Shown here: positions 1,776 to 9,509 of the stretch, in pieces
Layout of the letters: the number at the start of each line of letters is the position of its first letter
How positions within the stretch are numbered: position 1 is the first letter of the stretch
Source: Candidatus Latescibacterota bacterium
GTDB taxonomy: Bacteria; JAAXHH01; JABIQT01
Reading direction: 5' to 3'
Assembly: GCA_018667995.1 (NCBI GenBank)
Contig: JABIQT010000783.1
Location: 1 to 12,751, forward strand
DNA: 12,751 nucleotides
The notes under the pieces: generated by a model
Database searches by the model: none
The model's input: only the letters and a program-made list of their open reading frames with translations
What the model was told of the DNA's origin: nothing
Position numbers and translations under genes: made by a program

Positions 1776-4163
1776 TCAGTCTTTCCTCATTATAGGTCGC
1801 TGAGACATGGTGCTTACTTCGAAAACCTGGAAAGAAGGATGGCTGAACTGAAGTTCCAGGATGTTATTCTCGTTGGCCTTCATTTGAACCGGCGTCAGTT
1901 GTGCTTCGTAGTTGTTCGACGCAGTAGGGGCCGTGATCGTAAAGCGTCCCTGTGGTTTCAACTCTTCCTTATTGAGTGTAATATAGTCGTACCACTGTTG
2001 CGTAGTCGCTTCTGAAGCTACACTCTCAGGGAGTCTTAAATTCACATCGAAGACCGGAAACTTTGCTTCCGTGGGAATGCGCACATTCAATCTAAGCAGG
2101 TATTGGTTTTCACCGTTTTGATTTGTTGAGGTGGGCAGTACATAGATCTTTCGGTATTCCGTGGGTTTCGTAATCCACTTCGGAGTATATGGGTCGCACT
2201 CCGCGACCAGGTTCTTGAGACGCCGGTCATTGCCTTTGTAGTGTGCGCCATGGACAATGATCGCTCGTGCTTTCTCAACGCCGCGATTGGATAAATCTCG
2301 GACGAAACTCCTGTATATCTCCGGAATAGCGGCCGCAGGAAACACATCAGTCTTAAGGCTATCCAGATATCCTTGCACATCTTCATTTCTTCGTGCCAGA
2401 CTGGCTGCATCGCCAGACGTAAATGTAAGTTTGTGAACCGGCATAAAAACGGGGTCTACGTACAGATCTTCCACACCATCGATGGACAGTTTATTCTCGT
2501 CTACAAAGGCGTCGACCCGTTGTTTTGAGCCTAACTCTACAGCCGTAGATAATCGTCCTTCCAGCCTCTCAACCGTGGCGCGCTTCGTGCCTGCAATACT
2601 ATTGGGCCGGAGGAAGACATTATCATCGTACAGACCCCTCAACTGAGTCTCGGCATTCTGCCAGGCCTGCTCCTGAAGCGCTACCTCGATGGCCGTCTGC
2701 TGCTGCTCAAGTGACAACTGATCTACCGAACTGTACTGTTGCATCAGGAAGCCCAGCCGGCGATGCGAGGTGAGTAGCTGCACCACGGAGCGATACTCGC
2801 GCCGTGGCCGAAACACGTTCACCTGCCTGACGACGCCCTGAGCCTCGTTGTAGTCACGATTCAAACGCGTTCGCTGGCTGCCTATTCGGCTGAGTTCCTC
2901 ATTGAGGCGTGAGACACATCGAAAGTGATCGTAGCCGTCGAATGAGATACTGTCGGTATTCGGTACCAGGCTGCTGAGTTCAGACAAAATCCCCAGCGCC
3001 TCGCTATAGTGAGTGTTCGATGGCCATGTGTGCTGCGCATTTCCGTAGGTCTCGGCCTGTGCAAGCCGTTCCAATGCTGGCGTCACACGCCCGGCTTCCC
3101 GATTGAAATTACCGATGAAGCCCGCAAGACCGAGGAATCGCGAAGGAGGATTCTGCCCGGAAGCCCGGTAGAGGCCGCTCACCGAGTCCAGATTAAAGCT
3201 GAACTGGATAGGATTGATGTCTTCCCTGGCGGCGATCTGCTGTTCGAGGAAACCTACGGTGCCACCTAGCCTATTCCCGAAAACTGTTTGACCTTCCCGC
3301 ACCACACCTTCCGGCAACTGATCGGCGCGTCCGAGGAAATCCAGAAAATCCGGAGCCAGATTCAAGAATGCCTGCATATTACCCCTGGAACTGGATTCTT
3401 TCTGGAAGGTGGTCAGAACTTCACGATAGTTGCTTTGAAATGCTAGTTCGTCATCAAGCTGGCGTCTTAGTTGTGTATAGTCCTGATAGGCCCTGTCATC
3501 GGAATTGAGAATGGCGGGGGGAAACACGCTGGCCAGATCCCTAAATTCAGAATCGAGGGACTGCAGATTGACGTTTGCGGCATCGATCTGGCCTATCTCG
3601 GAGTTGTAGTCATAGCCTGTGTCAAAATGAAAGTCGCCGCCAAGTGCCAGGTAGTTGTCCCGGCCTATCTGATTCTGCCGGAGTCGGTCATTGAACTCGT
3701 CTCGTTTCGTCTCGAAGGTGTATCGCCATATGGGTACATACCGATAATCGAGAGTCAATGTCAGATCTTGACTTACCGTTTCCGCAACCCAGTAATATGT
3801 GGTCGCCCCGGAAACAGCGAAGGCACTGGCACCAGCAGTATCTTCACTCATGTCGCGCATTCTCGTCCCGGCACCTTTCTTCTTTGGTTTGGTTGCCGTA
3901 AGGTATGTACTCATTAACGCCTGCTGGTCGTTGCGCAGTACGAGATAGGAATTACTCACCGTCGGACCGGGAAACACCACAAAGTACTGTTTCTTCGCTT
4001 TCAGTTGAAACTGCTCGATCTTCTCATCGCTACGAGCTTTAGTCAGCTCTATATAGTCGCCTTCAGCGGACGCGATGGGGGGCTTGGGTTTCAATTCCGA
4101 GTAAGCGCCACAGCCCATCAGTGACATAGAGAGCGTGATGCAAACGAGATATCGGAAGTTCAT
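1776..4163 (-). CDS. Large lipoprotein of unknown function (795 aa)
   Basis: I do not recognise the family. The start is the ATG at 4163: GAGGAG lies a few bases upstream, and the next residues form a lipoprotein signal (hydrophobic 4-16, lipobox L15-M-G-C18, then GAYSE). A longer frame begins at 4217 but adds 18 polar residues ahead of the signal, so I reject it. After Cys18 come a mixed segment with two aromatic-rich stretches (YFVVFPG 60-66; TTYYWVAET 121-129), a Gly/Tyr/Asp-rich part (174-190), and a long, mostly helical middle (200-560) with many Gln, Glu and Arg; 417-545 looks coiled-coil prone. A C-terminal part (665-790) reads as beta strands. No catalytic motif is evident. It is the first gene of a minus-strand pair with an ABC binding protein, suggesting an envelope role linked to uptake or cell-surface structure. 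That link is inferred from position only. Confidence 0.88.
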   Translation of the reverse strand: MNFRYLVCITLSMSLMGCGAYSELKPKPPIASAEGDYIELTKARSDEKIEQFQLKAKKQYFVVFPGPTVSNSYLVLRNDQQALMSTYLTATKPKKKGAGTRMRDMSEDTAGASAFAVSGATTYYWVAETVSQDLTLTLDYRYVPIWRYTFETKRDEFNDRLRQNQIGRDNYLALGGDFHFDTGYDYNSEIGQIDAANVNLQSLDSEFRDLASVFPPAILNSDDRAYQDYTQLRRQLDDELAFQSNYREVLTTFQKESSSRGNMQAFLNLAPDFLDFLGRADQLPEGVVREGQTVFGNRLGGTVGFLEQQIAAREDINPIQFSFNLDSVSGLYRASGQNPPSRFLGLAGFIGNFNREAGRVTPALERLAQAETYGNAQHTWPSNTHYSEALGILSELSSLVPNTDSISFDGYDHFRCVSRLNEELSRIGSQRTRLNRDYNEAQGVVRQVNVFRPRREYRSVVQLLTSHRRLGFLMQQYSSVDQLSLEQQQTAIEVALQEQAWQNAETQLRGLYDDNVFLRPNSIAGTKRATVERLEGRLSTAVELGSKQRVDAFVDENKLSIDGVEDLYVDPVFMPVHKLTFTSGDAASLARRNEDVQGYLDSLKTDVFPAAAIPEIYRSFVRDLSNRGVEKARAIIVHGAHYKGNDRRLKNLVAECDPYTPKWITKPTEYRKIYVLPTSTNQNGENQYLLRLNVRIPTEAKFPVFDVNLRLPESVASEATTQQWYDYITLNKEELKPQGRFTITAPTASNNYEAQLTPVQMKANENNILELQFSHPSFQVFEVSTMSQRPIMRKD

Positions 4164-4477
4164 GCCGTTCTCCTCATTACCGTTTCTGAATGCGGGGCCC
4201 CACGTGGGAGCGCGCACGGATGCTGCCTGAAGATTTGAGCTGTTTTTCGATCAATATGACATAATATCGGAGACACCACATCAATGCAAGATCTTTTCAG
4301 GCAGACGTCGTATATATTATAGAACGATTATTGCCTAACTATAACCATTCGATATCGCTCTGAGTTCCAGAGAATCTCAGACGTACGCCAGGCACCAATT
4401 GTGTGCGAGATCCGACGTGAAGAATATGGGATCCAATGCCATTACACTAGCTCTTCCACCCAGAACGGAGGCCAGTT
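4164..4477. promoter_or_regulatory. Divergent intergenic region between lipoprotein and sulfatase
   Basis: No gene is evident here. It must carry promoters for both directions. On the minus strand TATAAT is perfect at 4321-4316, but the -35 region 17 nt upstream is poor. On the plus strand TATTAT (4315-4320) is a near-match -10 with a TTTTCA (4294-4299) only 15 nt upstream. A stop codon at 4448-4450 closes the sulfatase frame just upstream of its start. An AT-rich core lies at 4311-4325. A TCTGAG/CTCAGA inverted repeat lies at 4359-4364 and 4376-4381. The long inverted repeat is listed separately. Confidence 0.5.
4223..4304 (-). promoter_or_regulatory. Long-range inverted repeat, possible leader structure or operator pair
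   Basis: CTGCCTGAA (4223-4231) and TTCAGGCAG (4296-4304) are perfect reverse complements. Allowing a 2-nt bulge (4294-4295), three more pairs (4232-4234 with 4291-4293) make a 12-bp stem closing a loop of 56 nt. If the TATAAT at 4316-4321 drives the lipoprotein gene, this lies within its 5' leader and ends about 60 nt before the ATG. It could be a folded leader or two operator half-sites. No known riboswitch class is recognised. Confidence 0.4.
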
Positions 4478-7472: not shown

Positions 7473-8330
7473 CTACACCGATACGGCTTCTCCGTCCTGG
7501 TATACCAGGGGAAAATGCGCACCGGCATTTCGCATCAATTCGTCGTCGTCTATATGAACAAATTCCTGCATCACGTGTTTGCCACTGGCCACATAACGCG
7601 ATTCTCCGGTCATGTAGTGAATGGCAATGGCGCGGCGGGGCATATCAGAGAGATTGTAAGGTGACCCGTGCCACGTAAGAGAATGGTGGAATGAGACCTC
7701 ACCCGCCTTAACCGGCCAGGGCCTGGGCGTCACGGTGGTTACTTCAGCCTTATCTGGTGGCTCAAAGCCTTCAATGCCACCGAACTCACGGACCTCTTTC
7801 AATTCGGATTGGGTTCTGAGGAACTCAATCTGATTACCCCACTTATGACTGCCCGGGACCATCCACATGCAACCGTTCTCTTCGAGTGCGTCATCAAGAG
7901 CTACCCAGGCAGAGACCGGTGTCATGGGCTTGATGATCGGCCAAAGGGGAGCGTCTTGGTGCCACCCCGTTACACCGCCATAGCCAGCGGGTTTATGTTG
8001 AATCTGATCATGCCACACCATGAGTTCTTTGGCCTGCGTCAAACGACTAATGGCATCCACAATGAACGGATGATGGGTAAGTGCCTTGTACGAATCGCAC
8101 ACTTCCCAGATATTCACAATCTGCCAGACGCACTTCTCGGCATCGTGCTCCCGTGTCATATTGTGGAACAGCACGGGGCGTGGATCGTTCTCCGCAAAGC
8201 TATCGGGACCGCGGGCCAGCAGCTCATCGAGTTCGTCCTTCAAAGCCTCAATCTGCTGGTCGTTCAGTATCCTACCACCATTGAGAAAACCGTCGTGATC
8301 GAATTGTGATATCTGTGCATCGGTCAGCAT
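7473..8330 (-). CDS. PhyH-family Fe(II)/2-oxoglutarate dioxygenase (first copy)
   Basis: A phytanoyl-CoA-dioxygenase-like oxygenase: such enzymes hydroxylate small molecules using iron, O2 and 2-oxoglutarate. I chose the ATG at 8330 (285 aa) because GGAG sits 5 nt upstream and the protein then begins as family members do (LTDAQISQFDHDGFL). An extension to 8465 would add 45 polar residues without a good ribosome site. The iron-binding facial triad is visible: W-H124-Q-D126 and W-H221-GS, with R232/R233 (PRRAIAIHYM) as the 2-oxoglutarate anchor. The block WVALDDALEENGC and PGSHK (142-163) is the family core. It is the first gene of a pair with the oxidoreductase and is divergent from the isomerase, so the palindrome at 8514-8568 may control both directions. 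The substrate is unknown. Confidence 0.93.
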   Translation of the reverse strand: MLTDAQISQFDHDGFLNGGRILNDQQIEALKDELDELLARGPDSFAENDPRPVLFHNMTREHDAEKCVWQIVNIWEVCDSYKALTHHPFIVDAISRLTQAKELMVWHDQIQHKPAGYGGVTGWHQDAPLWPIIKPMTPVSAWVALDDALEENGCMWMVPGSHKWGNQIEFLRTQSELKEVREFGGIEGFEPPDKAEVTTVTPRPWPVKAGEVSFHHSLTWHGSPYNLSDMPRRAIAIHYMTGESRYVASGKHVMQEFVHIDDDELMRNAGAHFPLVYQDGEAVSV

Positions 8331-8696
8331 TAGTGCTCCATGTATGTTGTAACGAGCGAGTGGAGTGGTGCGGGTATGTCGAAGGGGTGAATCTGTTCGC
8401 AAATCTATGCCTTCTGAGTCCAAAACCAAGTATTTTTTGCGTACCGCTATGCCGTTGTTGGGCATTCCGCTGCTGATGCGTTCCTGGCCGTTCGAAAAAT
8501 AGGAATCGGGTTAATGGTCGGCTTTTTAATGGTTGATCAGGGGATCAGCCTTGATCAACCCCGACCATGTTATATCTTTACCTACGTACACCGGAACTCT
8601 CCTGTGAACCTTTGCTATGTTAAGGCCACCAGGGAGCCTCTTTCGGGCTTATCATCCAAAACCTCCGTACCAGTCAGAATTTTATCAGGAGATCCT
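8331..8696. promoter_or_regulatory. Divergent intergenic region between dioxygenase and isomerase
   Basis: This 366-nt region should hold promoters for both directions. The isomerase frame is open back to an ATG at 8514 and the dioxygenase frame to an ATG at 8465, but neither extension has a ribosome site or family-like sequence. An extended -10-like TGCTATGTT lies at 8614-8622 without a good -35. A TATATC lies at 8571-8576, just past the palindrome. I see no strong sigma70 pair. The dominant element is the palindrome listed next. Confidence 0.45.
8514..8568. promoter_or_regulatory. Compound 20-bp palindrome, probable operator or structured leader
   Basis: The inner stem runs from 8531-8542 (beginning GGTTGATCA) to 8549-8560 (ending TGATCAACC): twelve pairs with one G-T, closing a 6-nt loop. 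The outer stem ATGGTCGG (8514-8521) pairs perfectly with CCGACCAT (8561-8568). The only interruption is a 9-nt bulge (8522-8530) on the left side. GATCA occurs three times within 25 nt. No T-run follows on either strand, so it is not a standard terminator. It sits 129 nt before the isomerase start and 183 nt before the dioxygenase start. A dimeric regulator site or an RNA leader fold both fit. Confidence 0.6.
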
Positions 8697-9509
8697 GTGC
8701 TGACCAATCCCATTTCTCTCTTCAGCCAGTGTTTGTTTGCACTGCCTTTGACAGAGGCGATACGAGCAACTTCTGATCTGGGTTTCGAAGCCATAGAGCT
8801 GGCCTGTATCGCGCCGCACTTTGATGAGCAGGCGGCAAGGCAGTCACCTGAAACTGTGGCTGAGTCTATCCAGCTTCAGGGCCTTAAGGTATCAGCGCTA
8901 TCCCTTTTTAGCAGCTTTACGGACCCCGATCAACTTAAGGAGCAAATAGCGGCCGCTTCACACTACATCAGATTAGCGCCACTTTTTGAAACGGAAATCG
9001 TGAAGATAACGCCCGGTCAACCCGCTGCGGTACATGCGAACGAGTATCATTGGGACAGCTTCAAACAGGCCCTGGACTGCCTTATCCCCCTGGCGGAAGA
9101 TATGGGAGTCAGGCTGGCCTGCGAGACCCATATGCGTCAACTGACGGATACGCTTGCCGGCACGCTACGTATGCTGGATTCGGTGTCGGGAGAGACGCTC
9201 GGTCTGACAGTTGATTTTTCAAATATGAGCTTTGCCGGCGAGTCTATGGTGGACGTTTTCGATAGGCTGTCCTGTAGAATGTACAATACCCACGTCAAGA
9301 ATGGTACTGTCGGAGAAGACGGATCCTGGCATTTCGAAGCCCTGGATACGGGGTGGACGGACTATGATGAGGTTATGGGACTGGTTAAGGGATCAGGCTA
9401 TACGGGCTATCTTACGGTGGAGTGCCTGGGGACTGACGCCCGGGACAGACCGCTCCAGACGGCGACGCGGGATCTGGTCAGTTTGAATGAGTTCATGGGG
9501 CGTTACTAA
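8697..9509 (+). CDS. Sugar phosphate isomerase/epimerase-like TIM barrel
   Basis: A xylose-isomerase-like/AP-endonuclease-2 superfamily protein: metal-dependent isomerases, epimerases and dehydratases of sugars, ketosugars and cyclitols. I chose the GTG at 8697 (270 aa) because AGGAG lies 5 nt upstream and the fold begins at once (NPISLFSQCLFALPLTEAI). The upstream in-frame 61 codons cross the palindrome and look non-coding. The expected metal ligands are all present at the ends of strands: E143 (ACETH), D173 (TVDFSNM), H199 (NTHVKNG) and E242 (TVECLG). FEAIEL (30-35) and LKVSALS (63-69) are the usual first barrel strands. It is the first gene of a plus-strand run with the aldo/keto reductase (143-nt gap) and the second dioxygenase. 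The exact reaction is unknown; pairing with a Gfo/Idh/MocA oxidoreductase suggests a keto-sugar or inositol-like route. Confidence 0.92.
   Translation: MLTNPISLFSQCLFALPLTEAIRATSDLGFEAIELACIAPHFDEQAARQSPETVAESIQLQGLKVSALSLFSSFTDPDQLKEQIAAASHYIRLAPLFETEIVKITPGQPAAVHANEYHWDSFKQALDCLIPLAEDMGVRLACETHMRQLTDTLAGTLRMLDSVSGETLGLTVDFSNMSFAGESMVDVFDRLSCRMYNTHVKNGTVGEDGSWHFEALDTGWTDYDEVMGLVKGSGYTGYLTVECLGTDARDRPLQTATRDLVSLNEFMGRY

Follow-up and report, generated by a model that had tools for sequence, protein, structure and literature searches.

What does a long, nearly perfect palindrome do between two divergently oriented metabolic genes of an uncultured bacterium, if it does anything at all? The window analyzed here (the whole stretch of 12,751 nt) comes from an evidently metagenome-assembled genome of 6.06 Mb in 1165 contigs, 85% complete, whose nearest relatives are uncultured bacteria, several of them placed under Latescibacterota and some under Gemmatimonadetes. 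On its minus strand lies a phytanoyl-CoA dioxygenase family gene (phyH; 7473..8333, start at ~8333; Pfam PF05721, E 6e-34), the best orthologues of which reach 73% identity within the order. On the plus strand, a xylose isomerase-like TIM barrel gene (8697..9509; Pfam PF01261) opens with a GTG start at 8697, preceded by AGGAG. Elsewhere in the window, the minus strand encodes an 813-aa protein (1776-4217) that matches no Pfam family and carries a lipoprotein-like signal (LMGCG). phyH and the isomerase gene are separated by 363 bp, and the palindrome sits in this interval, ~128 nt upstream of the GTG. As the sequence-only reading had proposed, the site is a true intergenic gap between divergent genes.

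The palindrome is a compound inverted repeat at 8514-8568, read on the plus strand as ATGGTCGG - CTTTTTAAT - GGTTGATCAGGG - GATCAG - CCTTGATCAACC - CCGACCAT. The two outer arms (ATGGTCGG, 8514..8521, and CCGACCAT, 8561..8568) are 8 nt each and 100% complementary. The two inner arms (GGTTGATCAGGG, 8531..8542, and CCTTGATCAACC, 8549..8560) are 12 nt each, 92% complementary and 6 nt apart, and they enclose the loop GATCAG (8543..8548) with 11 Watson-Crick pairs and one G-U pair. A 9-nt one-sided bulge (CTTTTTAAT, 8522..8530) separates the outer from the inner arm on the left. The count of 12 inner and 8 outer pairs broken by a single 9-nt bulge, first made by the sequence-only reading, is reproduced arm for arm; on the plus strand, it amounts to 19 Watson-Crick pairs and 1 wobble, 20 in total. 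The sole inner mismatch is a G-T, which can pair as G-U only in plus-strand RNA. RNA folding yields -30.8 kcal/mol (z -6.9) for the plus strand and -25.4 kcal/mol (z -5.0) for the minus strand, the weaker fold of the latter being due mainly to this one G-T position, and shuffled sequences folded as well in 0 of 200 cases.

The rarity of this structure depends on what is counted. Within the window, the inner stem is the sole instance of its class (12 nt, at most one mismatch, loop of 3-10), and by itself it is not rare, since about 0.25-0.29 such stems are expected by chance per 12.7-kb window (one estimate gives 0.285, and simulated sequence totaling 34.8 Mb contained 668). The compound, in which a one-sided bulge of no more than 12 nt links the inner stem to an outer arm of 8 bp, is expected ~9e-5 (analytic) to 4e-4 times per window and appeared once in the same 34.8 Mb. 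The palindrome thus exceeds chance if the window is taken as prespecified, but it was picked out of many windows; the analytic expectation is ~0.04 per genome of ~6 Mb, and some 6-Mb genomes should carry such a compound by chance. Among gapped Watson-Crick stems in ~362 kb of unmasked sequence from its own genome, a sample that includes the window, it ranks second. The best one there is a perfect 22-bp hairpin with convergent genes on either side (L253:11284-11332; G000:C480), probably a bidirectional terminator.

We favor, with a probability of roughly 0.42, the reading that the palindrome is a lineage-specific hairpin or operator, that is, a single-copy inverted repeat acting in cis in the phyH-isomerase divergent promoter region, most likely with a local effect. 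The exact compound stem, its rarity by chance, its place in a non-coding gap between divergent genes and the negative terminator and Rfam results point in this direction, as do the scarcity of comparably strong folds among other divergent gaps of this genome and a plus-strand hairpin, unrelated in sequence and elsewhere in the gap, at the orthologous locus of the related genome G013; the single site, the arms missing from G013 and the lack of clear enrichment of its half-site geometry point away from it. A regulatory role is plausible and could take either of two forms. Transcribed within the isomerase leader, the palindrome would form a long hairpin ~128 nt before the GTG and might alter mRNA stability or expression; alternatively, it might serve as a DNA site for a dimeric regulator acting on both promoters. 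We lean slightly toward the RNA hairpin on the plus strand, because the sole imperfect inner pair is a G-U on that strand. The 5′ UTR stabilizing hairpins are likewise strong plus-strand stem-loops upstream of a start codon; the palindrome, however, lies 128 nt from its start codon, and its placement in a leader is putative. We found no convincing promoter that would set it inside or outside a transcript.

The operator form, which the sequence-only reading had put forward, did not gain from further searches. Operators of dimeric bacterial regulators are similarly inverted repeats in divergent metabolic promoter regions, but this palindrome is unusually long and bulged, with neither a second genomic site nor a regulator gene nearby (none among the seven window proteins scanned). 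BLAST, pattern (at most 3 mismatches) and covariance model searches of its own genome, itself 85% complete, returned no second copy; BLAST against 15 other genomes of the order returned none either. Phages held no similar sequence, and plasmids gave just short, weak matches outside the palindrome. Four viral contigs carried the left-arm pattern; on inspection their right arms were absent, and they were taken as chance matches. A pattern of both inner arms and the right outer arm had no match. The half-site geometry TTGATCA-N12-TGATCAA (at most one mismatch) is found at 17 sites in 16 genomes, where a rough uniform-base estimate gives ~10, a frequency near chance and no clear excess in the order. 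The three matches inspected besides the window's own (C728, G013 C174 and G008 C43) all fall inside open reading frames. An operator would be expected to recur, as related sites, before co-regulated genes of its genome; only chance-level sites were seen, and the palindrome does not pass as an operator on this count.

Most members of the order keep the phyH-gfo pair and have a dioxygenase 58-73% identical, and a divergent isomerase gene lies beside phyH only in this genome and, truncated, in G013; at the other phyH-gfo loci there is neither a divergent isomerase nor a similar palindrome. The only orthologous gap found is that of G013 (G013:C54), and it lacks the arms, so that compensatory changes cannot be counted. 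Since G013 belongs to a different family, the loss of the arms weakens both the operator and the leader hairpin while leaving each of them standing. The palindrome occurs once, between genes, in a single genome, and because it is single-copy and missing from the only comparable relative, it is most likely a control site of the ordinary local sort, or else a hairpin that is neutral, and not an element of a new kind. A search of the literature on this phylum and on palindromes returned nothing relevant.

A neutral palindrome would present the same picture, and we consider it almost as likely as cis-acting function. A chance imperfect inverted repeat in non-coding DNA would in that case have been extended or homogenized through template switching during replication, and would have no function. 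Template switching is known to create hairpins and to maintain them (PMC8794818), and quasipalindrome mutations have been described in E. coli (PMC7202029). Similarly to template-switch quasi-palindromes, this one has near-perfect arms, a local extra segment (the 9 nt in one arm) and a lineage-specific distribution, although here there is no ancestral sequence for comparison. Its single copy in one lineage, its absence from the sole orthologous gap found and the commonness of the inner stem fit this origin, as does the repetition within the locus, with TTAATGGT at both 8511-8518 and 8526-8533 and GATCA present three times. We note that TTAATGGT forms a direct repeat, its copies 15 bp apart (8511-8533), which overlaps the left arms of the palindrome and fits, though not strongly, local slippage or template switching. 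Against neutrality stand the rarity of the compound by chance and its nearly perfect arms, yet a single template switch could yield both. If the palindrome is functional, it would offer a first handle on how dioxygenase and isomerase genes are regulated in this uncultured group; if it is not, it would illustrate that striking single-genome palindromes need evidence of conservation before they are called operators.

It is unlikely that the palindrome arrived as a solitary small insertion, MITE-like or the remnant of an IS end, with ATGGTCGG and CCGACCAT as 8-bp terminal inverted repeats. GTTA abuts both of its outer edges exactly (8510..8513 and 8569..8572), as a 4-bp target-site duplication would, with a chance probability of ~1/256 for one given length and a higher one if other lengths are allowed. 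Judged from the sequence, this GTTA/GTTA pair hints weakly at a tiny insertion. MITEs and IS-derived insertions have terminal inverted repeats and a flanking target duplication; here there are 8-bp inverted ends and the GTTA/GTTA pair, which may be such a duplication although 4 bp is short. They also have other copies or a parent element, and here no further copy, even a diverged one, was found in the genome itself (BLAST, covariance model), in the order or in phages. The plasmid matches do not cover the palindrome, and no empty site could be aligned. REP elements are high-copy elements. Like the palindrome, REP and REPIN elements are short intergenic sequences able to fold (REPs are 20-40 bp; PMC3733652), but the palindrome has no shown tag or RAYT association and is present in one copy in an 85% complete genome, and we rejected membership on that count. 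No repeat family fits it.

A Rho-independent terminator or attenuator, suggested by the strength of the stem-loop, is very improbable. An intrinsic terminator is marked by a GC-rich stem with a run of T immediately behind it; no such run follows the stem on either strand, and a terminator scan found no terminator-like site, in agreement with the initial impression that the palindrome matches no terminator. Moreover, the strongest terminator-like hairpins sampled (L253, L240 and L295) sit between convergent genes, but here the gap is divergent. Rfam covariance models gave no match in the window at gathering score.

Slightly less probable still is a leader hairpin or operator of the phyH/isomerase pair that evolves by replacement, so that the hairpins in this gap would be unrelated in sequence from one relative to the next. 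The orthologous gap of G013 does hold an unrelated, imperfect hairpin in another place, near the phyH start (L054:2389-2438; G013:C54), which folds at -28.7 kcal/mol on the plus strand over 60 nt (z -5.2), and over 75 nt at -30.2 kcal/mol on the plus strand against -17.1 kcal/mol on the minus strand. Of 25 other divergent gaps sampled in this genome, only 1 contained a window folding at -25 kcal/mol or lower; with the limit set at -28 kcal/mol, the counts were 1 of 25 in this genome, the palindrome's own gap not being scored, and 2 of 25 in G013. This sample was judged on folding energies only, as an ungapped Watson-Crick score gives no credit to bulged outer arms. Because strong windows occur at these frequencies, the presence of hairpins in both orthologous gaps is suggestive at most.

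Least probable of all is that the palindrome belongs to the isomerase coding sequence through a start at ATG 8514: the frame is open from 8514 to 9509, but the extension (8514-8696) has a codon log-odds of -0.13 (61-codon windows of the neighboring genes mostly score +0.05 to +0.2, some near or slightly below zero), in the extended frame the AP_endonuc_2 match starts only at residue 84, and the homologous protein of G013 begins at the position matching GTG 8697, with in-frame stops upstream. The suggestion that this extension is not translated is thus upheld by both codon statistics and the relative. The G013 homologue itself (L054:2794-3110; G013:C54) keeps about the first 40-70 residues, then diverges and stops after 104 aa, and may be a truncated gene or reflect an assembly break. 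Elsewhere in the G013 genome, a near-perfect palindrome with ~28-bp arms lies at L275:17603-17671 (G013:C80), flanked by convergent genes.
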